64,000 nucleotides of DNA from Anagrus nilaparvatae (lineage: Eukaryota > Arthropoda > Insecta > Hymenoptera > Mymaridae): positions 35,156,501-35,220,500 of the forward strand of contig JAKSXM010000007.1 of NCBI GenBank assembly GCA_022575985.1. The letters run 5' to 3'. The first letter of the stretch is position 1; each line of letters starts with the position of its first letter. The position numbers and the translations under genes are program-made. The notes beneath the pieces are model-generated. The model was not told where the DNA came from. It searched no databases and saw nothing but the letters and a program-made list of their open reading frames with translations. Below, one piece after another: positions 5,250-58,149 of the stretch.

Positions 5250-5422
5250 ATTGCTCAATAATTTAAATTCATTCAAGAAAAATGATAAAAAGAAAACAAT
5301 TTTTTTTTTTAATTATACTTATAAAACTTTAAATTAAAATTTAAATTAATCATAAAAAAAAAAATATATTTGAAAATAATTCTTCAATTTAGTTTTAATA
5401 ATAAAAATTAGATTATATATTT

Positions 5423-6020
5423 ATTAATTTTTTAAGCGACCGTATACAGACAAATGAAGATTTCATCTTTATCGACATCATTATTTATTGCTTTTTATTG
5501 AGAAATATTAATTTTGACAATTATATTTATCATATAACTTGGTCAATAATTTTCTCACAATAGTAATGACTATTGTTGATGAAAGAGAAAAATTCAATTA
5601 ATTTTTTCAAACTTAAATTGCATTAATAATGCAATTCCGCGATTTTTTAAAAGATGTTAAATAAAATAAAAAACCAGAAAAAAAGTACGACCACCGCCCG
5701 GGATCGAACCGGGAACGACGAATTACTAGTTCGATGCTTTACCAGTTAAGTTACGGTGACCCCAGTTCGATAATTTTTTATTTTATTTAACATCTTTTAA
5801 AAAATCGCGGAATTGCATTATTAATGCAATTTAAGTTTGAAAAAATTAATTGAATTTTTCTCTTTCATCAACAATAATCATTACTATTGTGAGAAAATTA
5901 TTGACCAAGTTATATGATAAATATAATTGTCAAAATTAATATTTCTCAATAAAAAGCAATAAATAATGATGTTGATGATGAAATCTTCATTTGTCTGTAT
6001 ACGGTCGCTTAAAAAATTAA
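5423..6020. repeat. Palindrome with about 245-bp arms flanking a tRNA-like apex
   Basis: The left arm (about 5423-5673) is the near-perfect reverse complement of the right arm (about 5774-6020). The outer ends share ttaagcgaccgtatacagac, and the arms differ by only a few substitutions and one small indel. The roughly 100-base spacer is not random sequence but holds a complete tRNA-Thr-like cloverleaf. No transposase or clear target duplication is seen. Confidence 0.9.
5689..5760 (-). tRNA. tRNA-Thr (anticodon AGT)-like sequence
   Basis: Read on the minus strand, this 72-base sequence folds as a cloverleaf. It has a 7-bp acceptor stem (GTCACCG with CGGTGGT, two G-U pairs), T8-A9, a D arm containing the AACTGGTA loop, and an anticodon loop CTAGTAA (anticodon AGT, Thr). 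The variable region is 4 nt. The T arm is perfect, CCCGG-TTCGATC-CCGGG. The discriminator is C. Weak points are an A-C mismatch at the base of the D stem and a T-T mismatch at 27-43. It sits exactly between two long inverted repeats, so it may be a tRNA gene captured by, or nucleating, a foldback element. Whether it is transcribed is unknown; CCA is not encoded. Confidence 0.7.
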
Positions 6021-9000
6021 AAAATTATTTAATTTCACAGACGTATAACGTATAAAAATTATATATTTAATTATCTAATTGATTTGTTTTTAAATTTTAT
6101 AATAATAAAAACTTTTTATATTAAATATTCTTTTTACTTACATAAAAATGCGCACCACCACTTAATATTATTGAATTACAAAAATAGATTTTTATTATTT
6201 TATTTTAATAATCAAAAATTTAAAGATTTTTTTTTTTTTTTAATTTAATTTACTAAATAATTTAATTTTATTTAATAAATAATTTCATTAATTAAGAATT
6301 TGAATATCAAATTTGACAACAATAATTTACTCTAATACATTATATTACTAAACACATAATACTCATAGAGAGAAAGGGAGATGAAGAGATAAAGAATAAA
6401 TAACCTCATCTCTATGTGTTTTCTTTTCAAAAAAAAATTTTAATTTCACCAAAAAAAAGACAAGTAACAGAAGAAAAAGAGGTAAAATAAAATTACTCAT
6501 CTTAAAAAAAAAATAATTGATGTTGAGATCCAGCATGTGCGCACGCTACTTTAAAATTTCAAAATAATATAGCCGCTGACATTTTTTATCCTTCATGCGC
6601 TGGAGAAGAATAGATATTATATGATGATGACGACATTTCTCTTCCGTGATAAGTTGTTGCCATGCCAATATCTAATAGCGTGCACCTGTTGAACGGCCAA
6701 AATCCCTTTTACTGTTTTGCCTATTTTAGTCTCTTTTTCAACTCTTCTTTTTATTCTCTGGTGTGCGTCGACTCCCCCACTATTAATTTTCAAACATGAA
6801 AATTCTTCTTTTTTTATTTTTTTATTTTTACGATTCTTTTTTAAAAATCTTCTATGATTTTTATCCTTGAATCTTTGTTGAGATTAAAAGAAGTTTTTCT
6901 GTAACAAAACGTCGCCATATGACGTCACAATTAAAAAAGAAAAAATTTCGTTATTGCTGTCCTTCTCTTTACTCCGGTACTTGTTGTTCCGGTGTTTAAA
7001 TAAAAATCACCATATTTAAAATTTTTTTTTGACACGTGTAGCAAAAAAAAAAAATATTTTTACACTTTTAATATATTTTGCATGTTGATGATTTTTCTTT
7101 ATAGTTTTTGCCGATAATATTTATAACCAAAGTACTTTATATGCTGCACGTGCACATGTTTTTCTATTATCACCTTATGACTCCATCTTGATACAATTTT
7201 CCAAATTTTGCAATTATAGACTATATTTTTAATTCACATTAATCATCCAATAATTAAAAAAAATATCAATGTGCATCACAGTTTTTATAAATAATTGTAT
7301 AAAAATATATTAATTTTTAGTTTTAATCAATGGCACTTAGTTTTATTAAACGGCACTCGAAACTTGTACACGTGATAACCGCGTGTTGAAAAAATCACAA
7401 ATCTATCACTTCTTCATAAAAAAATAAAACTTTTATACCACTGGGATGCCAAATGTAGACGTGGGTAGATAAGAAGAAGTAGATAATGGATTAATGAGAT
7501 AGAATAAATGAATTTGCACAATTTAATTGTTATAATTTTAGATATATAAATTTATTAAATTTCTATTAAAAATTTATGTCTTACTATAGCGGGAGTCGTT
7601 ACCGCACTACCGGCGACGATGACCTAAGAGAGTTAATATTAAGCGGGGCGCGCGCACACACATTCACACTATTTACATATATACAACACAACATCCGGTT
7701 TAAATTCACCGATTTTAAATTTTAGAGTTGCATTTGAAAGGTCTTGAGTAGACAAAAAAAATGATACCAACCAGTATTTTAGAGTTGATCTTAAGCCACG
7801 ATATTATTTTGAAAATTAGCTTTTTTGATAAAATTCATTTTACGTTTATCAATGCCGAAAAAAATTGACGCCTTGAAATCAGCTAAACATTTTTTCACAA
7901 AATGTAGACCTTTTACCGGTTCAAATGCGACCAAAGATAAAATTTGAAGTAAATTTAAAGGAATGGCGTAATTTTAAAAATGGGCCAAGCCAGGCTATTT
8001 TTGAACCTATTAATGGCCCCATGAGGTGCTAAAACTTTGGCTGAGGGACTTTTTTATTACCCTAAACTATACTCTAAAATTTGAGCTCAATTAGTGACAT
8101 GAGTGCCCCCGAATCTGTACGAAAAGTACTGGAACCACCCAGTATCATTCTTGGGTAATGGCAATTTCGTTCTCACGGTCTACTTATCATGCTAATTTAC
8201 GAACTTACCTTCTCTGCATATTTACTATGCCGCCGTGGAGGTATTCTTATTCTGCTATATAGCAGCTATTTATTAATTTTTGCACCTATTATGTGTTAAG
8301 TGAAACGCTGTATAGTAGTAAATACAGTAATATATTATAAAGTAACTTCGTCGCTCATAAGAGCAATAACGTTTTTTTTCTGGAATAAATATTTCAAAAA
8401 GGGCAGAGTAGTTTTCCGAGCCTCAGAAAGAAATTAAAATACAAAGCGCCATTTATCCATTTTTCTTTCACTGCTATGAAGCAAAAACAGAGTAATGGTA
8501 AACAAGCCTTTGATTCTTAGCAGGTGGAAGGCAACAGCCAGTTGCCTAGACTGTGCATCCTAAGCCGAAGTTATATCTGAAAATGGAGTTCCGGTTGAGG
8601 ACAGAAAGCGAAGGGGGGTTTAAAGTTTGTTTAGTCAGCAAGAATGTGAAACAAAGCTGGCAACCAGGTTCACAAGACTCTTGATTATACTTTGTGCAGC
8701 TGGGTGGTCATGGAAACCTGCGGACCTCTAAGGCCCCCAAATGCTCCATAATTGATGCAAAATTAATACAGTTCTCCTTGTAAAAAAAAAGTATACAAGT
8801 TTTAAATAGACATTAATAATTCAAAATTTAAAACTCTTTAGATTGTACATGTAGTGCGCGGCAAGTGAAGGGGGTGGAGCCCTCATTAATTTTATAATAT
8901 AATAATAGTAATGATAATATAGATAAGTTGTTTTAGAAAAGTACAATTAAAAGGACTGCTTCTTCCTCCATATTAAGATAAGGATGAACGAGATACGTGT

Positions 9001-12362: not shown

Positions 12363-13467
12363 ATTTTCAAATTCTGAAAAACCGCCTCCCTATAAACGTT
12401 CCATGTTAAAATATTTAATAGATTCCGAAATATTAATCTCAGAAGTTAGTGGTTGAAAACGTAAAAAATTTTTTAATTTTTTCACTAAAACTGATTTTTC
12501 TTAGAATCTAAGAGGTCTTTTGAGACATGCTTTAGTGAAAATTTTTCCTTGGAAAATGATATCGATTTAACGTTTTTTTCTTTAATCCGAGCTCATGATT
12601 CAGAGTTACAACTATTTAAAGCCAAAAAAATCAAAATTTAAAAACTAAAAAAGTTGTCACTTTAATCACTTCATAACTCAAAATCTATATCACCAAAACG
12701 AACAAACTAAAGTGCTATGTATTTCTTAAAGCGTTAACTAAAACAAGTATTTTTGGTTTTTAATTTAACCCTTTCATTAAAGAGAAATCTCAAAAAAACC
12801 ACTTTACGTTAAATTACAAAAAAATTTATCATTTTAAAAATGTTTTTAATATCTGAAACAAAATATATATATATATATTTTTATATTAGTATTTTATATT
12901 ACAGCAAATATATATTGAACATTTTCGACTTTAATCAAGTTATGAACAATCAATATGAGTGATTCTTAGTGAATTCAGCAAAAGTTTCCAGGTCGGGTCG
13001 CTGAAACCGGCTAAAAACTTTTTTTTGCCAATTACCTATCCAAAATGGACTATGTCCCCAAATTTTAGCCCTTAATATTGAAAACTAAGCCCAGCGCGAA
13101 TTTTTGAAAAAAAAAGACGTTTTCATCTTTCCTCAGCCACCCATTCTTCTTTTATGTGCCATTCCTTCTGGAAATCATTAAAAATAATGAAAAAAGAGGT
13201 ACTACAGTAAAATTTCCTCAGGAATCCAGTCATGCCATTAATTTTTGAAAATTCCTACACGGGGAGCCAGAAAATCGATAAATTCACAAGGTATATTACG
13301 GAAACTACAGAAAAATTGTATATCCGAATTTTTTATTGAGCTTCTCAGGAAAAGCGTGTTTTTATATATATTTTTGGATGCCATATCAACCTAGATGCGA
13401 TCGAACTTCCTAGACCCTAAAATAACCGAAAAATCGTGAATTTTCCTCAATTTTTCTCATTTTTTAG

Positions 13468-14355
13468 CAGTTTTTTTGAATTTTCCCGCTCTAAATGACT
13501 CCGAACGATTTAAACAAAGTAAAATTCGGATTCCCAGGGAAATTTCACATATTTTCTTTATTTAAATAATTTTTATGCATCGATGTAAACGAGCTCACAC
13601 CAAATGCCTTAAATACAAAATTTTGATTTTTATCGTTTTTTAGCAGTTTTTTTGAATTTTCCTGCTCTAAATGACTCCAAACAATTTAAACAAGGTGAGA
13701 TTCGGATTCCCAGTGAAATTTTACATAATTTCTTTATTTAAATAATTTTTAGGCTTTGATGTAAACGAGCTCACACCAAATGCCTTAAATACAAAATTTT
13801 GATTTTTATCGTTTTTTAGCAGTTTTTTTGAATTTTCCCGCTCTAAATGACTCCGAACAATTTAAACAAGGTGAGATTCGGATTCCCAGGGAAATTTTAC
13901 ATATTTTCTTTATTTAAATAATTTTTAGGCTTTGATGTAAACGAGCTCACACCAAATGCCTTAAATACAAAATTTTGATTTTTATCGTTTTTTAGCAGTT
14001 TTTTTGAATTTTCCTGCTCTAAATGACTCCAAACAATTTAAACAAGGTGAGATTCGGATTCCCAGTGAAATTTTACATAATTTCTTTATTTAAATAATTT
14101 TTAGGCTTTGATGTAAACGAGCTCACACCAAATGCCTTAAATACAAAATTTTGATTTTTATTGTTTTTTAGTAGTTTTTTTGAATTTTCCCGCTCTAAAT
14201 GACTCCGAACGATTTAAACAAGGTAAGATTCGGATTCCCAGGGAAATTTTACATATTTTCTTTATTTAAATAATTGTTAGGCTTGGATGCAAACGAGCTC
14301 ACACCAAATGCCTTAAATACAAAATTTTGATTTTTATCGTTTTTTAGCAGTTTTG
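13468..14355 (+). repeat. Tandem subterminal repeats of the long-TIR transposon (about 176 bp, 5 copies)
   Basis: Each unit contains gctctaaatgactcc, attcggattcccag, gtaaacgagctcacacc and a tttttagcag junction. Alternate copies share the same private differences (for example cctgctc versus cccgctc), which suggests that a two-unit block was duplicated. Such subterminal repeats are usually transposase-binding sites; that role is inferred here. Confidence 0.88.
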
Positions 14356-14581
14356 TGTGTACTTTTTTTGTTTAAGGTTCCTAATAAGATTTATTATACC
14401 GTATATAATAACAACTTAATAAATATTATATTATTAAAGATGTAAATTACTAATAATCTTATTTCCGAAAAAAATTTTAAATAATATAAATTTAGCGCTA
14501 AAAATAATAAACATTGTATATAAAAAATTTAAAGCTGTGGCGTGGCAACCGTCAATGTTTACAAGATTTATTAGTAAATAA

Positions 14582-15271
14582 ATGAGTTACATTAAAAACA
14601 TTTTTATTGTATTCATATTATTCATTAAAACAATAAGTTACGTAAATTGTAAACATGACGTAGTAGCAGTTAAGGTTTTTCAAAAATATATTGTAAGGTA
14701 CACAAAAGAAAACATGCCTCAAATTAAGAAAATTGAGTATGTTAGCGATAGTTGTCCGGGACAATACAAAAATTGTTCCAACCTATACAATTTATGTCAA
14801 CATAAAAAGAATTTTGGTATTGATGCGAAGTGGATATTTTTTGCAACTTCTCACGGTACATCAACTTGTGATATCATTGGAGGTACGATAAAAAGAGATA
14901 CAAGCAAAGAAAGTTTACGTCGTGAATTTGATAATCAAATAATAAATGTAGGCCGCATTCATGAATTTTGTGAACAACATTTACCTACAATAAAAACAAT
15001 AATAATAAGCAGAGAGGAGTTAAACCTGGAACGTGACACAACATCATCAATTGCGCATACCATTCCAGGAACACGAAATTATCACGACTTTACTCCATTA
15101 TCAAATACAATAATTGGCTGTAAATATTTAAGTTCAGATGAAAGTTATTCCTTAAGATTTAATTTGTTGAAAAAAATAGCTTATAAATGGTCAGCAAATA
15201 CTTATGTCTCTTTCGTAATCTTAAATACTTGGGCGGTAGGTTTTATTACAGATATAATTGAAGATGAATAA
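14582..15271 (+). CDS. Transposase-like protein of the long-TIR element
   Basis: 229 residues, ATG to TAA, centred between the inverted arms of the transposon. The N-terminus is hydrophobic (residues about 6-22, a signal-like or membrane segment), which is unexpected for a transposase and may mean the true start or first exon is elsewhere. Residues about 55-110 carry SDSCPGQYKN, then HKKNFGIDAKWIFFATSHG, then CDIIGGTIKR. This resembles a widespread invertebrate family of repeat-encoded proteins with an Asp...Gly-Gln-Tyr-Lys...Ser-His-Gly...Gly-Gly...Lys-Arg pattern, likely an RNase H-like catalytic fold. After the TAA the same frame stays open for a further 56 codons and still looks like the family, so the stop is probably a disabling mutation. 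Function is inferred from position and pattern. Confidence 0.6.
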   Translation: MSYIKNIFIVFILFIKTISYVNCKHDVVAVKVFQKYIVRYTKENMPQIKKIEYVSDSCPGQYKNCSNLYNLCQHKKNFGIDAKWIFFATSHGTSTCDIIGGTIKRDTSKESLRREFDNQIINVGRIHEFCEQHLPTIKTIIISREELNLERDTTSSIAHTIPGTRNYHDFTPLSNTIIGCKYLSSDESYSLRFNLLKKIAYKWSANTYVSFVILNTWAVGFITDIIEDE

Positions 15272-15442
15272 ATAGCTGAAATATCTGTATTACAAAGTTT
15301 TTCAAAAAATGTCTACAAATGGCCTGGTACTGAGACCCGTGTTAAAGTAGGCTTTAATGAAATTTTATACAATGTATCGGCTACAAATGAAAATGATAAA
15401 ATAAAAATAAAACTAGGGCATACTCATTCCAAATACACTTAA
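15272..15442 (+). pseudogene. In-frame C-terminal continuation of the transposase-like gene
   Basis: Directly after the TAA at 15269-15271 the same reading frame continues for 56 codons to a TAA at 15440-15442. It contains the phrase SKNVYKWPGTETRVKVGFNE, which looks like the C-terminal Trp-Pro block of the same protein family. It indicates that the ancestral protein was about 286 residues and was shortened by one nonsense change, unless the stop is read through. Confidence 0.55.
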
Positions 15443-16739
15443 TATCTAAAGAATTTGGATTCTATTTGTGAATAAATTATTTAAATTATAAAAATATTTT
15501 CTGAATGCATTATTGTAGCTAAATATTATGTAAATATCAATAAAAATTTTTTTAATAGAATAATTTTCTTCTTATTAAAAAACTCATTCTTTTAAAAATT
15601 ATCAAAATATGTATTTCATTCATTATTATTTAAAAAATTTTTTTTCTTTAAAGAATAGCTATATTTTATAGAATGTAACTCCGAATTCTACCTAGTGACC
15701 AATATAGAGCTAAAAAATAATTTAAATTTATAGAATTTTCTATGAACTCTTTTACACTAAAGCCAAAAAATTATTAAAGTATAGAAAAAGTTTAAAATTT
15801 TACTGGAAACCCGAATTTGACATTAATTAATTCATACAGGGTCATGGAGTGCGGCAAAATTCAAAAAAACTGCTAAAAAACGATAAAAATCAAAATTTTG
15901 TATTTAAGGCATTTGGTGTGAGCTCGTTTACATCAAAGCCTAAAAATTATTTAAATAAAGAAAATATGTAAAATTTCCCTGGGAATCCGAATCTCACCTT
16001 GTTTAAATTGTTCGGAGTCATTTAGAGCGGGAAAATTCAAAAAAACTGCTAAAAAACGATAAAAATCAAAATTTTGTATTTAAGGCATTTGGTGTGAGCT
16101 CGTTTACATCGAAGCTTAAAAATTATTTAAATAAAGAAAATATGTGAAATTTCCCTGGGAATCCGAATTTTACTTTGTTTAAATCGTTCGGAGTCGTTTA
16201 GAGCGGGCAAATTCAAAAAAACTGCTAAAAAATGAGAAAAATTGAGGAAAATTCACGATTTTTCGGTTATTTTAGGGTCTAGGAAGTTCGATCGCATCTA
16301 GGTTGATATGGCATCCAAAAATATATATAAAAACACGCTTTTCCTGAGAAGCTCAATAAAAAATTCGGATATACAATTTTTCTGTAGTTTCCGTAATATA
16401 CCCTGTGAATTTATCGATTTTCTGGCTCCCCGTGTAGGAATTTTCAAAAATTAATGGCATGACTGGATTCCTGAGGAAATTTTACTGTAGTACCTCTTTT
16501 TTCATTATTTTTAATGATTTCCAGAAGGAATGGCACATAAAAGAAGAATGGGTGGCTGAGGAAAGATGAAAACGTCTTTTTTTTTCAAAAATTCGCGCTG
16601 GGCTTAGTTTTCAATATTAAGGGCTAAAATTTGGGGACATAGTCCATTTTGGATAGGTAATTGGCAAAAAAAAGTTTTTAGCCGGTTTCAGCGACCCGAC
16701 CTGGAAACTTTTGCTGAATTCACTAAGAATCACTCATAT

Positions 16740-24869: not shown

Positions 24870-24971
24870 ATTGAAGTATTCATAATGAATTTGAATATCC
24901 AAGTCACCTTAATTAAAATGAGATATTTTTACCTTTGTTTTATCCGTCTTGAGAGTGACTTCGTTTATAAA

Positions 24972-25022
24972 TATTTTACACTACGCGTTTCAGAATTGAA
25001 AATTCGATCATCAGGTGTATTA
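24972..25022 (-). ncRNA. Hammerhead-like ribozyme motif (type I), left arm of PLE 1
   Basis: Exact inverted counterpart of the motif at 26557-26605. It contains CTGATGA, a stem II of GAATT/AATTC, GAAA and a palindromic ACGCGT stem III. It lies on the same strand as the element's ORF. Confidence 0.6.
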
Positions 25023-25338
25023 TTTGTCAGATGTTAAAAAATAAATATAATGATTAAAGTTTCTAAAAACTAATTATTTCTTAATTTTAATTTTAAGTTC
25101 TTCTTCTTTGATTTCTTCTTATATACACTATATTGCACTTTTTATCACTATTATTTTTCATATTTTAAACTGATTTTATTTATTTTATTTTACTTTAATT
25201 TTAGAAAATTTTTATTTAAAATTTTGTTATTTACCGGACGAGATCTCGTTATATACTGTTTAAAATTTTTATTATTACATTTTATTATTAAAGTTTATTT
25301 ATTATTGTATCCTATAGAGAATTTGATTTGAACTGTAA

Positions 25339-26250
25339 TTAGTCATTTAACAGGGGTGTATCGTTGTTTTTCAGTGCCTTGTATATTTCGTATTCTTCTA
25401 ATGCATTCATATAATTTCCTTTTTTGTCATAAAAATGTATAGGTGTTAAGAAATCATCAAAATTTTTATTTTTATATTCGTGATTGGTTGTTATCAGATG
25501 TTTTGCAAAATTTGATTGTATTATTGTGTTCTTTTTGATGGTTTTTGGTGGTAAATGCTCAGTATATCTGGTGTAAAAATCTCTAGCTGTTTGTCCTATA
25601 TATATTGAGCCACATTCACATACAATTTTATATATACCTGCTTTTTTTGTTATTGGCTCTATATTATTGTCTTTTGGGTGTAATATCCTTTCTATTTTGT
25701 TGTCAGTACTGAAACTAATTGTTATACCGTGCTTCTTGAATGCATGAAATAATATATTAGACAAATAGTTTCCAAATGTGGCCGATGTGTATTTAATTTC
25801 ATTAATTTGTTCTGCGTTGTTTTTATCACTTAGGTTATTTTTAATAGCAATTTTCTTACGATGTCTAGTTATTAGTTTGTCTATAATGGAACTATTATAT
25901 CCGTTTCTTACTGCAATGTGTTTAATTGTATTAACTTCATCCTTAAAATCTGTTTCAGTCATTGGTATTGTTAGGAGCCTGTAAACGAAACTATTATATG
26001 CTGCCATTTTTTGTGAATATGGATGATGTGAATTTATATGTATAGTTGCGTCTGTTGTGGTTGGTTTTCTATAAATTTTGAAAATTAAATTGTTTTCTTT
26101 TGATTTTCTAATATTTAAATCTAAAAAGTTAATGGAATCTTCTTTTTCTAGTTCTAATGTGAATTGCATATTTTTATTCTTTTTATTTAAAAAGGTTTTG
26201 AAGTTTTCTAATTGTCTGTTAGTTCCATTGTAAATTAAATTACAGTTCAA
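25339..26250 (-). CDS. Penelope-like RT C-terminus plus GIY-YIG endonuclease
   Basis: 303 residues. Residues about 30-75 carry the Penelope pattern NFLDLNIRKS...FKIYRKPTTTDATIH with NSHHPYSQKMAAYNSFVYRL, which follows the catalytic YxDD block of these reverse transcriptases. Residues about 206-240 carry GIYKIVCECGSIYIGQTARD, the hallmark GIY-YIG motif, then Arg-Tyr-Thr-Glu-His. A conserved Asn/Glu-rich tail follows. The catalytic RT fingers and palm are missing because the ORF starts at the inverted-arm boundary, so the protein is a 5'-truncated product. The frame itself is undamaged, indicating a fairly recent insertion compared with the UPF1 relic around it. Confidence 0.88.
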   Translation of the reverse strand: MNCNLIYNGTNRQLENFKTFLNKKNKNMQFTLELEKEDSINFLDLNIRKSKENNLIFKIYRKPTTTDATIHINSHHPYSQKMAAYNSFVYRLLTIPMTETDFKDEVNTIKHIAVRNGYNSSIIDKLITRHRKKIAIKNNLSDKNNAEQINEIKYTSATFGNYLSNILFHAFKKHGITISFSTDNKIERILHPKDNNIEPITKKAGIYKIVCECGSIYIGQTARDFYTRYTEHLPPKTIKKNTIIQSNFAKHLITTNHEYKNKNFDDFLTPIHFYDKKGNYMNALEEYEIYKALKNNDTPLLND

Positions 26251-26556
26251 ATCAAATTCTCTATAGGATACAATAATAAATAAACTTTAATAATAAAATG
26301 TAATAATAAAAATTTTAAACAGTATATAACGAGATCTCGTCCGGTAAATAACAAAATTTTAAATAAAAATTTTCTATAATTAAAGTAAAATAAAATAAAT
26401 AAAATCAGTTTAAAATATGAAAAATAATAGTGATAAAAAGTGCAATATAGTGTATATAAGAAGAAATCAAAGAAGAAGAACTTAAAATTAAAATTAAGAA
26501 ATAATTAGTTTTTAGAAACTTTAATCATTATATTTATTTTTTAACATCTGACAAAT

Positions 26557-26605
26557 AATACACCTGATGATCGAATTTTCAATTCTGAAACGCGTAGTGT
26601 AAAAT
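26557..26605 (+). ncRNA. Hammerhead-like ribozyme motif (type I), right arm of PLE 1
   Basis: Order of elements: stem I strand ATACAC, core CTGATGA (26564-26570), stem II GAATT/AATTC with unpaired bases at its base, core GAAA (26587-26590), then ACGCGT (26590-26595) as a loopless palindromic stem III. Next come A as the cleavage nucleotide and GTGTA completing stem I. Penelope-like elements are known to carry type I hammerheads with minimal stem III that act best as dimers. The poor base of stem II lowers confidence in activity. Confidence 0.6.
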
Positions 26606-26661
26606 ATTTATAAACGAAGTCACTCTCAAGACGGATATAACAAAGGTAAAAATATCTCATT

Positions 26662-27000
26662 TTATCCTGTGTTTGCTTGTGTAGATACTTTTCAAGAAAG
26701 CAGAAAAATAACAAAATGATTCTGCATTAGGTCCAGTAAGTATCGAGGTATTAGTTTTTTTAGTCTAAATTAAAGTGAAGAATATTTCAATATGATTTGG
26801 AATGTTTACGAACATGGAACATGTGCCAGCAAGGCTAACTAGTAAACAAGTTGGAGTAAAGAGTAGACATCGTATCAATGAAAATAATCGATCAAACTTG
26901 TCTTTTATTCGCCTCAAGTTTGCCCCAAACTGAATTATTTATTTAAAGTGGAAGAGTTTCAATCACAAATAAATGAGTTATCGCTCCAAGATTCCACTTA
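26662..27000 (+). pseudogene. Upf1: UPF1 pseudogene, C-terminal part
   Basis: After the Penelope-like element the translation reads ACVDTFQESRK, matching UPF1 'ASVDAFQGREK'. Then come decayed frames with MEHVPARLTSKQ, and near 26950-26995 EEFQSQINELSLQDSTY, closely matching the UPF1 tail 'EFKSQIDVALSQDSTY'. The block between these in UPF1 (the final helicase motifs) is largely missing or unreadable. The end lies just after 26995. Together with 21150-22106 and 24582-24869 this is one relic cut by two mobile elements. Confidence 0.75.
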
Positions 27001-41587: not shown

Positions 41588-41647
41588 CTGTCATTAAAAG
41601 CAGGATAATTTTAAATTAGAAAAAAAAAGCAAAACTTCTTCCTTCTA

Positions 41648-42184
41648 ACGGTATACAAAAGCAAGCATCTTTAGTCGTTTTGGGAACATGTGCATGGCAA
41701 GTACTAACACAAATTTCAAAAAAATAATTTCATAATTTTAATATTTTTTGTTTTTTTAAATAATTAAACGGTGTCTAGATAAGGTGTATTAGGAGTCTAC
41801 TGACGAGCCAACCTAATACACTCTGGCGAAACACTGTTACGTGACTGTTAGTTGAAAATTAACCAATTTATTGGTTAAATTAATAAAAATATTACATTAA
41901 ATTGGGTCACGTTGGTCATAAAAAATAAAATTTCTACATTTTCTGTTTATACATGAAAATATTGAGTAATGAATTTTACTAGAAGTTTTATTTGTATGAT
42001 TAGAAGCTTTAACATAAGCAAATTTTGATGAAAATTTATTTTCAAAAATAAGGCTATGACATTTTTTGATACTGATTTATCAGTTCGTGTTATTTTTAGC
42101 CTTATTAAATTTTAAATAATCTCTGAATGTAATTTTATAAAATTAATAGAATAAAAACGCCAGCTGTATTTAAATCTGAAAGAG
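41648..42184. mobile_element. 537-bp insert with 22-bp target duplication and a hammerhead ribozyme
   Basis: The 22-base sequence aaagcaaaacttcttcctt plus cta occurs at both edges (41626-41647 and 42185-42206). The interval between them has no coding potential and no poly(A) tail. It contains a type III hammerhead ribozyme (41767-41838) and a small palindrome aaccaatttattggtt (about 41859-41874). It lies at or next to the exon 2 - exon 3 junction of a spliced gene. The combination suggests a small retrotransposed, ribozyme-bearing element, functionally similar to retrozymes or Penelope-derived repeats; the mechanism is inferred. Confidence 0.75.
41767..41838 (+). ncRNA. Hammerhead ribozyme, type III topology
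   Basis: All conserved core positions are present. Stem III is aacggtgt (41767-41774) with acactgtt (41831-41838), eight pairs with one G-U. The cleavage triplet is GTC (cut after 41775). Stem I is taga/tcta (41776-41779, 41796-41799). The core CTGACGA is at 41800-41806, stem II is gcca/tggc (41807-41810, 41824-41827) and GAA is at 41828-41830. The open helix is stem III, which makes it type III. The loops of stems I and II contain a perfect 10-base complement (41784-41793 with 41812-41821), which could be a tertiary contact or a competing hairpin. Confidence 0.82.
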
Positions 42185-42502
42185 AAAGCAAAACTTCTTC
42201 CTTCTATGATCGCGTATGTTTTCCCAAAATTGACCTGTTAAAGCAAATTGGTCCATAATCCGGGGAACATCGGATATAGTAGGATATTCAGCGACAGGTG
42301 GTTGTTTAAATTTAGATAAAAAATCTCTCTTAATTAATCTAGGATTTTTATTATCGAAAGTATCTAAAACACGAAATATGGGAATTCGGTAGTCATGAAA
42401 AAATTCAGGTGCAAAACTTTTACGTCTAAAATATTTGGGGGGTAAACGGTTAGCCCAGTCGAATAGGGGAATTTTGAGTCGTGATTGACATGAATTTTTA
42501 AG
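42173..42502 (-). CDS. Unidentified spliced gene, second coding exon
   Basis: Begins after a textbook acceptor (tttctctttctAG, AG at 42503-42504) in phase with exon 1. It encodes RLKIPLFDWANRLPPKYFRR, then FFHDYRIPIFRVLDTFDN and YPTISDVPRIMDQFALTGQF. It is rich in Pro, Phe and Arg with no membrane segment. In the present copy the frame runs through the left edge of the insert and stops at TAA 42170-42172; before insertion it would have continued toward exon 3. The protein family is not recognised. Third-position bias and conserved splice sites argue for a real gene. Confidence 0.62.
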
Positions 42503-47639: not shown

Positions 47640-48365
47640 AATCTAAAGTTGCTTTTTTCCTGGACATTCGAACAAATTTGGTAAAAAAAAATATCTTTTT
47701 CATGTTCATATTAGATAAAAAACATAAATACTAAAAAATGTTTAGAAAATCTAAAAAAAATAGACTAAAATTACCTATTGTGGATACATGAATCATATTT
47801 AGTAAAAACTGATATTATATTCGTGTTCATCGACCCGAAAAACATAAGCAGTTAATGAAAATGTTAAAAACCCCGCAAAATATAACCTCAAAATTCCTAT
47901 TGCGGGCAACTGAACCATTTTCGATAAAAATCTATATAATATTCGTGTTCAGCAACCCGAAAAACATAAGTAATGGATGAAAATATTTAAAAACCCGCAA
48001 AAAAACCTCAAAATTCCTATTGTGGGCAACTGAACCATATTCTGTGAAAACCGATATAATATTCATGTTCAGCAACCCGAAAAACATAAGTAACCCTCGC
48101 GTAAATAAAAACATCCCCGAAAATTAACCTAAAGTTGCTTATTGTATGCAACTGTACCATTTTCGGTAAAAACCGATATCATATTCGTATTCAGCGACTC
48201 AAAAAACATAAGTAACCCTTGCGAAAATAAAAAAATTTCCAAAAATTAACCAAAAGTTGCCTATTGCGGGAAACTGGACCATTTTCGGTAAAAACTGATA
48301 CCATATTCGGGTTCAACGACCCAAAAAACATAAGTAACCCTTGCGAAAATAAAAAAATCTCCGAA
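47640..48365. repeat. Tandem array, approximately 121-bp unit, six copies
   Basis: Units share ttgcctattgtgggcaactg, aaccattttcggtaaaaac, atattcgtgttcagc and aacccgaaaaacataagtaa. Copies start near 47646, 47770, 47890, 48008, 48131 and 48250. The central copies are most alike and the outer ones diverged, as expected for unequal exchange. Confidence 0.88.
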
Positions 48366-48367
48366 AA

Positions 48368-48528
48368 TTCAGAAGCTTTGATCGATTAGTTTCGGATTTA
48401 GCAATTTTAAGATATTAATTTAAATTCGGATTAATTCTTAATTCTGTTTAATAAATAGTTCAAAATTTGTTTCAGAATTACCCTTAAAATTGCTAAATCC
48501 GAAAATACTTGATCAAATCTTCTGATAT
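48368..48528. mobile_element. Small hairpin MITE (about 160 bp) at the Helitron gene end
   Basis: Imperfect inverted ends (tcagaagctttgatc and a matching gatcaaatcttctga) contain a perfect core cggatttagcaattttaag. It truncates the helicase frame, which closes in the right end. Confidence 0.75.
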
Positions 48529-48986
48529 TTGGCACATTTATTATGTATCAAAAGACTACCATTTTGCAAACGGGTTCCATTACATAAACCATTTTTCACA
48601 TTTAAATTACGTAATAATATTACGATGGGACTAATTTTCAATTCCAATTTATGTAATAGCAATCCATTTAGAATTAATGAATTCAAAAACTCAATAGGTA
48701 TATACTGAAAATTTTTGGAATTATCATTTTCATCTATCGTTTCAACACTAAAATGTATACGTTTTTTACCAGATATTTTATCAAAAATTTCTGAATTAAT
48801 TTTAATTACATCTTCAGTAGTTAAAGCTAAAATAATATTACTACTGAATTCAGGATTGAAACAATTTAATTTTTCTCGAAATATTTTATTGATTAAATTA
48901 CAATTAGAATGATTATTTTCAGAAATATGTATTAGATTATTAAATTCAGAAAAATTATTATCATATACACCATTACCTACATTCAT
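48513..48986 (-). pseudogene. Helitron helicase, C-terminal segment
   Basis: 157 residues. ILALTTEDVIKINSEIFDKI, then IPIEFLNSLILNGLLLHKLE, IVILLRNLNVKNGLCNGTRL. This is the Pif1-like C-terminal block of Helitron proteins (YPVEFLNSL..GLPPHKL, IMLLRNLDP..GLCNGTRL). The C-terminus is cut by the adjacent MITE. Confidence 0.85.
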
Positions 48987-49463
48987 ACAAACATTATTAA
49001 AAGTTTCTTTGGATCAAGTAATCTTAGATTTTTTGTTAATTTAAATTGTTTAAATTTTGGCCATAACTTACTACTTTTAACACAAGCTTTAATAATATCA
49101 TTTGGATTACCTTACTTAATAATAGGTAATGTTTGTCAAAAATCACCTGACAGTACAACGTATTTAATACCAAATATGTAATTATTATTACAAATATCTT
49201 TTAAACAAAGATTCACACATTCAAAAGCATCTTTTGGTACCACTGATATTTCATCCCAAATAATAACATCAACATTTCTTAAATATTCTGCATATGCAGA
49301 ATTTGCTTTAATATTACATACTATTTCACGTGTAATAATTCACGTGTAATAATAAAACATATATAAGCTGTTTCTCCGAAAGGCAATAAATTTGCAGCAA
49401 TACTAGTCTAAGCAATACATTCAAATCTAATAAAATGTTTTTTTAAATTTTTAAAAAATTTAT
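48987..49463 (-). pseudogene. Helitron helicase, central segment (badly decayed)
   Basis: Between the two open frames the minus strand gives recognisable scraps in several frames, including SIAANLLPFGETAY (helicase Ia-like, 'GIAATLLPGGRTAH') and a strand resembling the 'IIWDEI' Walker B region. A perfect 18-base tandem duplication (cacgtgtaataatt..., about 49327-49351) lies within it. Confidence 0.6.
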
Positions 49464-50030
49464 TCAATACATAACTTTTACAGTCTCTCCAGGAACATCT
49501 ATAAATACCAATTTACTACCAATTTTCTTAAAGGCAGAAAAATTTAAACATTCATAAACATTTTTTTGTTCTACAGATAAATTATTCATCGTATTTGGGA
49601 ATGATTTTTCATCGATTTCTTGATCATTAACTTTAAAAGTGTACTTATTAAATGTGTTATCGTATTCTGAATTAATTCCAAATTTTTCTAGATTTAAACC
49701 ATGTGTTAATAGAATAGAATTTATAGTTTCTAGAGCACGGTGTTCAGCAACTTTTGGATCTAAACATGGTAATATAAAATACTCTTTATATTTATCATAC
49801 AAATCTGATGCATTTATTGGTAAATGAAATACTAATATGTACGCAAATAATTCGCACAAAGCATGTGGAAATTTATATTGCACAGCTTCAGCTAAACATT
49901 TATCCCATTCATCATCAGGTGACACAATATTTAATATCCATGCTGTTTCTAAATCTGAATCATAAATTATATTATTTACAGTTCTCTGATCAACAAAGGA
50001 TGTAGCACCTCTTACATGTAACAACAACAT
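49464..50030 (-). pseudogene. Helitron protein, region before and including Walker A
   Basis: 188 residues. LLLHVRGATSFVDQRTVNNI, DDEWDKCLAEAVQYKFPHAL, then LSVEQKNVYECL and KLVFIDVPGETVKVMY. The last corresponds to the Helitron Walker A (GPGGTGKT), here VPGETVKV, so ATP binding is lost. Confidence 0.87.
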
Positions 50031-50215
50031 TCGTAAATAATATCTTTCTATATCTTTACGATTAACGAATTACATTCTAGGGATAATAGCTTTTTTTTAA
50101 TTTTTACGAGGCAACCATTCTTTACTTTTTTTATGAAATACATAATGATAGGGTATTTCAGTGTAGAAATATTTTCTGGCATTTGGATCCCTTTTATTTA
50201 AATTAAGCCACGCTG

Positions 50216-50791
50216 TCAAAGTCGTTTCAAATTGATTTTTACTGATTTTAAATTATCTATATTTTCTTCATTAAAATAAACTTGTTGCTCATTTTCTAAA
50301 TGGACTGCTAATCTATAAACACAATGTAACAATTCATTTAACTTATACTCATAAAGTCTATAAATTGCTTCAGGTGAACATAAATAACGAGTTGATAAAT
50401 TGATTAATTTCATCGTAACAAGCATCATCTTTTTCATTATTCTGATTGGCATTAGAATTATCTTCTGACTGACATCTTCTGAAATATTATTAATTAATCC
50501 AATCATAGTTTTATCGGAACCTTTAATAATATACTTAAATAAATATTTTATAGACTTAATATTACAACAAATTTCAACATTTATGTGACATTCAAATTTT
50601 AGTAATAAATATGAATTATATGAAACAGAATATCTATTATCAGCAACTTTAGGATTCTTAGAATTGGGATTATATACTATTTGTCTACCATAAAAACGGC
50701 GACGATATTTTGGATAATCATTATTATTATTGTAATTGGTTTCTTCAAAAAATTCTTTAGGAAAATTTTTAATACATTTATTATTTTCCAT
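50216..50791 (-). pseudogene. Helitron Rep domain, catalytic tyrosine part
   Basis: 191 residues. Contains YRRRFYGRQIVYNPNS, VADNRYSVSYNSYLLLKFEC, HINVEICCNIKSIKYLFKYI and IKG. This matches Helitron Rep motif 3 (Y..KY..KG) that supplies the catalytic tyrosines. An Asn-rich expansion (NYNNNNDYP) is present. Confidence 0.87.
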
Positions 50792-50851
50792 ACAAGGCTA
50801 ATTTTTATTTTGTTCGTTACACGAGCCATGTATCATGTGTTGTTTTACCAA

Positions 50852-51244
50852 TTAAAACAATTTTGGATATAAATTTTTGTCAGGTATTTCAGCTGATATT
50901 ATTCCATTCACTTGGGCAGCGTTTCTTACTTTATATGCATCTAAAAAAATTTTTAAATAAATTAACAAATGAATATTAGGTAAGCCACGTTTTTTAAACC
51001 CTATGATGTAAACATATGCTACGACACAACTAAATAAACGATTTTCTATTATTTCAATTTTGAATAATTTTATTTTTTCATGAAAAAATTTTGCTAATAA
51101 ATCTGGTTGGTCCATTGCTGTTTCATTTTGTCGCAAATTATTTTTTATTTCAAGCCAATTAGGATTTGAAGTCATCGTAATAAATAGATCGGGCTTCCCA
51201 TAGAACTGCATCATTGCTAAAGTATCCAACATTTTCTCGTTCAT
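50852..51244 (-). pseudogene. Helitron Rep domain, HUH part
   Basis: 130 residues. DTLAMMQFYGKPDLFITMTS, NPNWLEI, then VVAYVYIIGFKKRGLPNIHL. The HUH nuclease motif, normally PHxH, reads PNIH, so the first metal-binding His is lost. The end is out of frame. Confidence 0.85.
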
Positions 51245-51377
51245 AGCACGAGGACCAGTACGATGATGGTAAAATTAGCATTTTTCCTATTTTTTGACGA
51301 TCATCAGCATATTTATTATGTACATAATCCATTAATCCTTGATATAACTCTGTTCTTAAGGGGTCTTGCGCTTTCAA
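51159..51377 (-). pseudogene. Helitron Rep domain, N-terminal part
   Basis: 72 residues including DPLRTELYQGLMDYVHNKY and GKMLILPSSY, the block just before 'DAMAI...GKPDLF' in Helitron proteins. A frameshift separates it from the HUH part, and the upstream portion is missing. Confidence 0.75.
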
Positions 51378-55169: not shown

Positions 55170-55450
55170 ACCAAAACATCAGAGACTTAACCCAGTTGAA
55201 TATACTTCGGCTTCTTGTATTGACTTTTAGGAATAAAACTTCCAAAAAATATAATATTAAAATTAAATAAATATGTATAATCTTAATATTTCTTAAAAAA
55301 TACTTTAAAAAAAAAATTATTAAACAATATAAAACTGTAAAAGAACTTACATTGGTTAATTTTTTAAACTAAAAAAAAATATCAGCTACGACCAGGACCA
55401 CGCCAGAAGCATCTGCGTAACCTGATTGAATATGCAATCTTCAATAACAT
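55120..55450. repeat. Left flank repeat, inverted copy at about 57825-58150
   Basis: accttggtcaaaaaaacgat, cagagacttaacccagttg and ctgattgaatatgcaat reappear as reverse complements around 58050-58150 and 57825-57850. The 2-kb palindrome therefore lies inside a larger inverted duplication. The copies contain a short repeated motif (atattcaactgggttatg) that could once have been exon sequence. Confidence 0.65.
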
Positions 55451-55456
55451 ATATTA

Positions 55457-57424
55457 TACACACCGTGCTTGAACGTACCGGAAAGTTGACCTAAAATGAC
55501 GACAAAATCGGCTTGGGCAGAATTTTAATATATATTTTTTTACGTCGATTCCTTCCTACTAGAAAATACGAGCTGCTCGTCTGCCCGACTTTCATGGGAC
55601 CTATAATTGCATATTTTAAGTTTTTTTAAATTAATGACTTAAATTGCCGCCAAAATTTTATTTCTTCATAAAAATAACTTCTATAGGTCTCAAAAATTTT
55701 TTACAAGCCTCACGCTTCCAACAATTCCTTACTCGTCTCTTTTCATTGATCTGTTTTCAAAATATGATAATTTAAAGTCAGAGTCTCAATTTAAGAATTT
55801 TTAAAAAAAGTCATTTTTATCATTATCTTTGAAAAACTATATCTCGGAAACAATTCAATAATTCAATGAAAAGAGACGAGTAAAAATTTTTTAAAAAATT
55901 TAAGCTTATAGAAAATTTTTGAGACCTATAAAACAAATTTTTATGAATAATTATAATTTTAGCAATAATTTAAAAATTGGTCATTTTAGGCTAAAAATGG
56001 GCCTTTAGTTTATTTACTATAACGATGAAAGAATTAGTGTTATAAAATTGCGGTTTACGGGGCTTGAAAAGTTACACTTACACCAAAAAAATAAAACTAA
56101 CCAGAAGTTTTTTTTGCCGTTGAACCAATTAAAGCCCCAGTGTAATAATGGTCTACTTGCAATGACTTCAAATATTAGAAGAGGTTTTCCTTAAATAAAA
56201 TATTAATTTATTATAATATATAATTTCATTTAGAAAAATTTATTATTATTAATACAATAAAAATTTTATTTGCGTTTTTGATTATATATAAAATAAATTT
56301 GTCTTTATAAAAAATAGTAATCATTTAAAGTATTTTAGTACCCTTTAAAAAATATTATGTAAAATAATTGAAGCCTAATACTTTTTGTCTAATACTTTTT
56401 CTATATTAAATATATATTTAAAAAAATAAAAAAACTTTTAAAAAACATATGTATAGTTATAAACCATTATAAACTGCACAAAAATCTTACAAGTTTAGTG
56501 AATAATAAAATTAATAAAAGATAAAATAAAATGTAATATTTTTTTGTTAATAAAATTAAAAATTACCATTATTTGTAAAGACGAAATTATTTTATATATA
56601 ATCAAAGGCAAATAAAATTTTTACTATATTAATAATAATAAATTTTTCTAAATGAAATTATATATTATAATAAATTAATATTTTATTTAAGGAAAACCTA
56701 TTCTAATATTTGAAGTCATTGCAAGTAGACCATTATTACACTGGGGCTTTAATTGGTTCAACGGCAAAAAAAACTTCTGGTTAGTTTTATTTTTTTGGTG
56801 TAAGTGTAACTTTTCAAGCCCCGTAAACTGCAATTTTATAACACTAATTCTTTCATCGTTATAGTAAATAAACTAAAGGCCCATTTTTAGCCTAAAATGA
56901 CCAATTTTTAAATTATTGCTAAAATTATAATTATTCATAAAAATTTGTTTTATAGGTCTCAAAAATTTTCTATAAGCTTAAATTTTTTAAAAAATTTTTA
57001 CTCGTCTCTTTTCATTGAATTATTGAATTGTTTCCGAGATATAGTTTTTCAAAGATAATGATAAAATTGACTTTTTTTAAAAATTCTTAAATTGGGACTC
57101 TGACTTTAAATTATCATATTTTGAAAACAGATCAATGAAAAGAGACGAGTATGGAATTGTTGGAAGCGTGAGGCTTGTAAAAAATTTTTGAGACCTATAG
57201 AAGTTATTTTTATGAAGAAATAAAATTTTGGCGGCAATTTAAGTCATTAATTTAAAAAAACTTAAAATATGCAATTATAGGTCCCATGAAAGTCGGGCAG
57301 ACGAGCAGCTCGGATTTTCTAGTAGGAAGGAATCGACGTAAAAAAATATATATTAAAATTCTGCCCAAGCCGATTTTGTCGTCATTTTAGGTCAACTTTC
57401 CGGTACGTTCAAGCACGGTGTGTA
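55457..57424. mobile_element. 2-kb near-perfect palindrome (foldback element)
   Basis: Ends TATACACACCGTGCTTGAAC and reverse complement. The arms of about 980 bp meet near 56440 with a very small centre and differ by only scattered bases. No coding capacity. The flanks are AT-rich and consistent with a TA-type target. Such size and symmetry are rare in stable DNA because of cruciform instability. Confidence 0.88.
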
Positions 57425-58149
57425 TATATATATTGTTTATTTTTCTTAATACATTGTCGATATTTTGAATTTAAATATAGCATAAAATTTTTTTTGTTTA
57501 TCGAATAGCACTAATTTTTATTTTAGTTTTTTCATTAAATCTTTATTTTCTAATTTATATTGAAAAAAAACTTAATTATTTTGAGAATTTAGTAAAATTA
57601 AAACTTTGGTTATGTAAAAAAAAAATATCAGATTGAAGTAAATCATTTATTAATATTAATTTTGACGTTCTTTTTTTGGATTTTTTTTTTTTACATAACC
57701 AAATTTATAATTACTTATACCAAGAAAAATTTTTTACGAGTAATTTTTAAGAAATATTAAGATTATTCATTATTTATTTTTAGTATCTTCTGAAAATTTA
57801 CACCCAAAATATAAGCTTGCATATTCAACCAGGTTATACACATCCTCTGGTGTGTTGATGGTCTTGTTTCTAGCTGATATTTTTTTTCAGCTTAGAAAAA
57901 TAAACAACGTAAGTCCTTTTACAGTTTTATATCCTATGATAAATTTTTTTTTTAAAGTATTTTTTAAAGAAATTTTAAGATTATACGTTATTTAATTTAA
58001 GTATTTTATCTTTTGGAAAGTTAATACCTAAAAGTCAATATAAACTACCGAAGTGTTTATATTCAACTGGGTTATGTCTCTGATGTGTTCGTGGTCTTGG
58101 TATTAAAATAACATCGTTTTCTCGACCAAGGTAGAACTGTAGTTTCTTG

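Follow-up and report, generated by a model that had tools for sequence, protein, structure and literature searches.

The 64,000-nucleotide stretch of contig JAKSXM010000007.1 analysed here (the window) contains, at positions 41610-42206 of the forward strand, one copy of a short protein-less repeat that carries a type III hammerhead ribozyme motif. When the genome (488.7 Mb in 393 contigs) was searched, this copy was found to belong to a family of dispersed elements. The family, which was active recently and carries a type III hammerhead, is real in this insect-like genome. The window copy probably represents a non-autonomous "type III retrozyme" family that is copied in trans from circles, in which the circle, the trans-acting enzyme and a switch formed by the hammerhead loops are suggested by sequence patterns.

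Hammerhead motif and its loops

The motif lies at 41767-41838 (+) and includes all nucleotides of the hammerhead core, namely the T-C before the cleavage site, the catalytic strand CTGACGA (41800-41806), the GAA core strand (41828-41830) and the A-U closing pair. The cleavage triplet GTC ends at 41775, and cleavage is predicted after this C. Stem III has 8 pairs, one of them G-U (41767-41774 with 41831-41838), stem I has 4 pairs (41776-41779 with 41796-41799) and stem II has 4, and their order, open at stem III, is that of type III. The first-pass annotation of the window had described a canonical type III hammerhead with a complete core and stems of 8, 4 and 4 pairs. Core, stems and order were confirmed on the sequence and in the alignment with the Rfam model RF00008 (Hammerhead_3); "canonical" does not extend to the loops, which are unusually long (16 nt on stem I and 13 nt on stem II).

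RF00008 aligned in full length at 41768-41837 with 34.2 bits and an E value of 1.9e-5 (801 bases searched with 4227 families). This score is far above chance and is below the gathering score of 48.5 bits, so that the motif is absent from a gathering-level listing; the covariance model, which had been proposed as a check of the motif, therefore supports it by E value but not by threshold. Furthermore, the hammerhead core pattern had one match in the window and none in 100 shuffled sequences. Neither the Rfam scan nor a script scan detected a minus-strand hammerhead in the element. Outside the element, a looser script scan gave an additional long-loop candidate at 51307 (-). The hammerhead at 41767-41838 is real as a motif, and self-cleavage of its transcript is predicted.

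A 10-nt segment of loop I (41784-41793) is the perfect complement of a 10-nt segment of loop II (41812-41821). Such a complement was expected by chance at about 1.3e-4 in simulated AT-rich loop pairs of equal size. All 10 pairs can form in 58 of the 68 ungapped copies of the first genomic sample described below (three gapped copies excluded) and in 21 of 24 copies of the second. The predicted energy of the window copy was -9.2 kcal/mol for the nested hammerhead and -12.4 kcal/mol for the kissing duplex by itself, and the best nested fold was a hairpin built on the same 10-nt complement (-24.3 kcal/mol; in the copy at locus L014, -23.2 kcal/mol, with the hammerhead at -9.0 kcal/mol). When the 559-nt unit was folded as a closed molecule, its predicted fold was 3.3 standard deviations better than those of 30 dinucleotide shuffles. 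From these models, the loop complement may serve as a conformational switch, and a kissing contact of all 10 pairs is hypothetical.

The element family and its ends

The ends of the window copy, 41610-41647 and 42169-42206, form a direct repeat of 38 bp with 89% identity. Tandem copies elsewhere in the genome overlap by about this 38 bp, with a unit spacing of about 520-565 bp; accordingly, the window copy consists of one 559-bp unit followed by the 38-nt start of the next unit (42169-42206, +). The first-pass annotation had read the same region as a 537-bp insert with a 22-bp target duplication. Both boundaries and duplication are rejected, since the real repeat is the overlap of head-to-tail units and the right end of the window copy is not the usual end of the family. 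We also considered whether a variant shared by the two 38-bp repeats was private to the window copy, and rejected this because it is present in L031, L032, L052, L058 and L065. The G+C content of the unit is 25%, and 41610-42206 encloses no open frame as long as 60 aa; one 110-aa frame overlaps its right edge only.

Genomic copies were collected in two samples. The first, obtained with 41610-42206 as the query, comprised 103 matches from the best 39 of 554 candidates, which were merged to 39 loci including the window; it was selected by score, so that long copies were favoured and copies under one unit were under-represented. The second, obtained with 41700-41899 and without a bias to long copies, comprised 42 matches from the best 40 of 588 candidates. 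Thirty of these 42 came with loci, and after removal of the window, known loci and units of the same array, 23 new elements were obtained. In these 39 and 23 loci, the copies were dispersed and were 5'-truncated, partial-tandem or tandem, and some were arranged head-to-head. A pattern of the catalytic strand and loop II with at most two mismatches matched 392 sites genome-wide and none in a reversed control. The 12-nt core was intact in 82 of 95 complete ribozymes and broken in 13, a count that leaves out cut-off copies (11 partial matches and one more), and 53 of 59 loci held at least one intact copy. Further genomic copies with a conserved core, which the first-pass annotation had proposed to look for, thus exist, and they support its suggestion of a non-autonomous retroelement that encodes no protein and bears a ribozyme, here a type III hammerhead.

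The 3' ends of the copies were mostly fixed. In the first sample, 27 of 45 outward 3' ends fell at unit positions 285-296 (site A; 41894-41905, +), which is about 60 nt beyond the ribozyme, and five fell at unit positions 388-396 (site B; 41997-42005, +); one spurious match in L015 was omitted from the 45. Site A, directly upstream of which lies a palindromic hairpin (41859-41878, +), is the presumed start of reverse transcription, and the window copy ends away from it. Six of the 39 loci were head-to-head (L010, L017, L018, L022, L028 and L029); four of them showed site B on one side, accounting for four of the five site B ends. Among non-inverted elements, 46 of 56 ended at unit positions 283-300 (24 of 33 in the first sample, and 22 of 23 in the second, whose query ended at unit position 290 and so favoured this result by design), and the remaining second-sample element ended at 314. 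The count of 56 leaves out one extra span in L055 and one in L058.

Exact flanking duplications of at least 9 nt were found in 15 of these 46 elements, compared with 2.0% of mismatched pairings, and those of at least 10 nt in 10 of 46, compared with 0.7%. The target duplications were 9-12 nt in length; the remaining elements of the 46 had no exact flanking duplication of at least 9 nt. The duplication of L015 was judged to be an artefact, because the match falls in the element's own overlap, and the count becomes 14 without it. An earlier form of the test, with one mismatch allowed, gave a score of at least 9 in 8 of the 39 loci, L015 among them, compared with 3.9%.

As for copy length, 14 of 33 elements of the first sample measured 559-659 bp, the window copy included, followed by 2, 4, 2, 2 and 1 in successive 100-bp classes and three longer ones. 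The bias of this sample to long copies hides those under one unit and cannot create the drop past 659 bp. In the second sample (n = 23), nine elements were 200-300 bp long, the next classes held 5, 5 and, at 500-559 bp, 0, and three elements fell at 559-659 bp, with one beyond.

The nearest full units of different loci differed by 0.18% (n = 26 full units; for example, L012 and L015), and two full units of L014 were identical, which indicates recent movement of the family. In one subfamily, about 40 bp are missing and the units measure about 521 bp. Long arrays were also observed, one at C147:1996504-2002431 and one on contig C95 (16586638-16591126) with at least eight ribozyme sites at 561-bp steps, one step being skipped. 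A change of C to A at the base closing stem II (G10.1-C11.1) was common to L017, L028, L034, L041 (the same copy as L047) and L042; judged from this base, these loci may form an older subfamily whose ribozyme is weakened. The exact 22-nt pattern had no match in viral and prokaryote contigs. When L047, L009, L018 and L041 were scanned together with Rfam, nothing was reported at E 0.01, though the core is preserved in L018 and in the copy that L041 and L047 have in common. With RF00008, a stretch of 801 bases from L014 gave 34.2 bits, and given this score we take the empty scan to be a filter effect.

Template, enzymes and neighbouring features

In the mechanism that we propose, tandem genomic units would be transcribed, and the type III hammerhead of each unit would cleave the transcript 3' of the base equivalent to 41775 to give monomers of about 560 nt. 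By retrozyme precedent, the monomer ends would be ligated into circles. A reverse transcriptase supplied in trans would then start at a constant position inside the unit, about 60 nt downstream of the ribozyme, presumably primed by nicked target DNA, a step of which the fixed 3' end and the short target duplications are the observed part. Copying for part of a unit, for one lap or for several laps would yield 5'-truncated, just-over-unit and tandem insertions, and the structure of the head-to-head copies suggests that both target strands may sometimes be used. The loop complement could bring the two loops into kissing contact when the ribozyme is in its active fold; alternatively, it could form a competing hairpin, which would silence the ribozyme after circle closure.

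The usual 3' end differs from the cleavage site, which means that in the template RNA the ribozyme junction was either uncut or ligated again. From such junction-crossing templates, together with the multi-unit copies and the length peak just above one unit, we infer that the template was circular RNA, which we regard as reasonably likely. When unit overlaps within 33 loci were compared with random pairs, shared variants were more frequent (0.0253 vs 0.0078 per column) and differing ones less frequent (0.0206 vs 0.0489); this pattern would fit a single template molecule or a single source array.

Several results weigh against this interpretation. Three units of L013 differ by 0.53-0.71% from each other and by 0.30% on average from the nearest units elsewhere, which speaks against a simple circle, and a multimer template fits the young arrays as well. 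In the first sample, 13 of 45 ends, that of the window copy included, lie at neither site, and the just-over-unit length peak is weak in the length-neutral second sample (3 of 23 at 559-659 bp). By prediction, the nested hairpin at -24.3 kcal/mol is more stable than the hammerhead at -9.2 kcal/mol plus a kissing helix of about -12.4 kcal/mol. In addition, the rates of difference from the window copy were equal in core, stem and loop (0.0114, 0.0116 and 0.0132), and among 18 distinct sequences from 20 hand-picked copies no pair was altered on both sides. Selection on the ribozyme is hence not visible within this young family, and covariation within the family was set aside as an uninformative test of the ribozyme. 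Diversity was 0.025 in the ribozyme and 0.050 in the remaining unit, with unit positions 401-480 less diverse still (0.014). Once inserted, the copies appear to undergo neutral decay, as would be expected of a young non-autonomous family.

The same element and ribozyme could also be moved without circles, if a long interspersed nuclear element (LINE) copied a linear transcript, either an uncleaved multimer or a polyadenylated RNA, and the ribozyme just trimmed transcripts. The distances among the L013 units fit this explanation, and a LINE reverse transcriptase, which may be of jockey type, lies inside the window; its named relatives listed are from insects, the best from Apolygus and Nesidiocoris. 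The A content of the 3' flanks is 63% in the first three bases and 28-42% from the seventh base onward, and an A-rich flank start is expected of LINE target sites. AATAAA is present at 41882-41887, 7-18 nt ahead of the usual 3' end; however, the youngest copies (such as L011-L016) have AATAAG there instead, which weakens an origin of the 3' end from a poly(A) signal. The junctions listed show no long poly(A) tails, and the existence of site B and the first-sample length peak just over one unit also argue against a linear transcript. Copying of this kind is a serious but rather unlikely alternative.

The long arrays on C147 and C95 and the 13 copies with a broken core would also agree with satellite DNA that carries a decayed or accidental hammerhead and is spread by DNA-level duplication. 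This explanation, to which we assign a very small probability, is largely refuted by the pattern of truncation and target duplication: single 5'-truncated copies are dispersed, with a mostly fixed 3' end, and 82 of 95 copies keep the core. Nearly as improbable is an integrated or endogenised circular RNA agent of viroid-like or hepatitis delta virus (HDV)-like type in place of a genome-born retrozyme. The HDV-like agents considered here carry hammerheads on both polarities, the element has none on its minus strand by the scans above and lacks an internal open frame of at least 60 aa, and it occurs in hundreds of copies with a tandem structure.

Retrozyme copying from circles is accordingly preferred here. 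A more specific version of it, which would make the family the first type III animal retrozyme, has the circle copied by Penelope-type initiation at two internal sites and on two strands, with the loop complement as a cleavage-then-lock switch that protects the ligated circle; this version is tentative and on balance doubtful. By analogy, the pattern of the copies, with partial tandems, two internal starts, head-to-head arrangement and AT-rich targets, resembles that reported for a lizard Penelope-like enzyme (PMC11167929). At least 39 GIY-YIG matches were found in the genome among the best 150 of 1091 candidates scored, with open frames of up to 885 aa. At least one locus, L088, has RVT_1 and GIY-YIG adjacent and is a Penelope-like element, and L080 is an SLX1-type host gene. 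Ten GIY-YIG loci yielded a single loose hammerhead-like string, located in L080, and nothing convincing as a type III hammerhead; the Rfam scan of these loci listed no hammerhead, although its filters may miss the motif. Homology between the unit and these ten loci was considered and rejected: the matches had about 60-80% identity, the longer ones 60-66%, with E values of 1e-6 or weaker. Equally strong matches are given by parts of L047 and L048 that do not belong to the element, and the matches to the GIY-YIG loci were therefore taken as AT-rich background.

A second hammerhead-like pattern with shorter loops was observed at 23 genome sites (2 in the control), 20 of which begin with CTGAAGAG. 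Three such sites that were read, L090 and L091 among the loci, share CTGAAGAG...CGAAACGTT; one of them scored 21.3 bits as type I (gathering score 34), and the other two had no listed hammerhead. AACGTT is palindromic, a feature that dimer-forming type I motifs also show.

Other repeats were observed in the window. Helitron remains at 48513-51274 (-) comprise Helitron_like_N (50852-51274) and a Pif1 2B domain (48513-49013), and a 122/242-bp tandem array lies with them at 47756-48369. At 24914-26664, 427-bp inverted repeats with 99.5% identity surround a 315-aa frame (25339-26286, -) that had no significant Pfam match; this is possibly a young DNA transposon. At 12953-16739, 997-bp inverted repeats (96%) overlap 176-bp tandem arrays around a 229-aa frame, again with no significant Pfam match. 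Inverted repeat arms of about 889 bp with 97.6% identity lie 227 bp apart at 55443-57441. At 5412-6033, inverted repeat arms with 97% identity flank a transfer RNA (tRNA)-like sequence (5689-5760, -; 45.8 bits), and this region could be a repeat derived from a tRNA.

Comparison with known systems

In the published accounts consulted, animal retrozymes carry type I and plant retrozymes type III hammerheads, and the common type I ribozyme is used to connect the animal ones with Penelope elements. The young type III family described here, in an insect-like genome, departs from this rule. Our literature search, the scope of which left most subscription journals and bioRxiv preprints outside, found no paper describing a type III hammerhead in a family of animal retrozymes. 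In the parts of the sources consulted, insects are named as potential carriers of type III elements, "in preparation" (PMC7761336), type III motifs are given as isolated in termites and without element context in dipterans (PMC7936874), and loop pseudoknots and the distribution of hammerhead types are described (PMC3088659, PMC6155905). RF00008 itself aligns in full length with all core positions of the present motif and differs by the long loop insertions, at 34.2 bits against the gathering score of 48.5. Because a gathering-threshold Rfam scan misses this hammerhead, relatives in other insects may be overlooked.

The termite, dipteran and Drosophila pseudoobscura type III hammerheads, in the passages of PMC7936874 (citing PMC3088659) consulted, are likewise from insects and have a Watson-Crick pseudoknot between loops I and II. 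Their complement is of about 4 nt, compared with 10 nt here, and they have an extra stem I hairpin that is absent here; moreover, the termite motifs are reported as isolated and the dipteran ones without element context, whereas the present one belongs to a multi-copy mobile element. Plant long terminal repeat (LTR) retrozymes share the type III topology, with a unit of about 700 bp as compared with about 560 bp here. They differ in G+C content (above 55%, versus 25%), in target duplications (4 nt, versus 9-12 nt) and in loops (6-8 and 4 nt, versus long complementary loops), and in the copies read here no LTR-like pair flanks the body, the 3' end being mostly fixed and the 5' end variable.

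Penelope-like elements, according to the passages of PMC11167929 consulted, have tandem and partial-tandem copies, two internal reverse transcription start sites, use of both DNA strands, AT-rich targets and a hammerhead, as found or proposed here. The present unit, in contrast, has no reverse transcriptase or GIY-YIG gene, the genes of Penelope-like elements sitting elsewhere in the genome, and its hammerhead is of type III, whereas those of Penelope-like elements are described as type I variants in the part of PMC7229834 consulted.

The same source (PMC7229834, Cervera and de la Pena 2020) describes, in that part, animal retrozymes with type I hammerheads, repeats of 150-450 bp and larger target duplications than those of plant retrozymes, with Penelope-like elements proposed as likely movers. 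Like these metazoan non-LTR retrozymes, the element is built of short, AT-rich tandem repeats that encode no protein and contain a hammerhead, forms multimeric arrays and has target duplications of more than 4 bp (9-12 nt here). Its unit of about 560 bp is longer than 150-450 bp, and its ribozyme is type III in place of the type I by which that group is recognised. The strong 8-bp stem III implies that a dimeric ribozyme should not be needed, unlike in metazoan non-LTR retrozymes; an animal element would thereby gain a ribozyme that should be active as a monomer. Furthermore, the mostly fixed internal 3' end makes the template and the enzyme of retrozyme copying directly testable. Taken together, the element works like a metazoan non-LTR retrozyme with a type III ribozyme and, as its hammerhead is not of type I, is not a plain member of that group.
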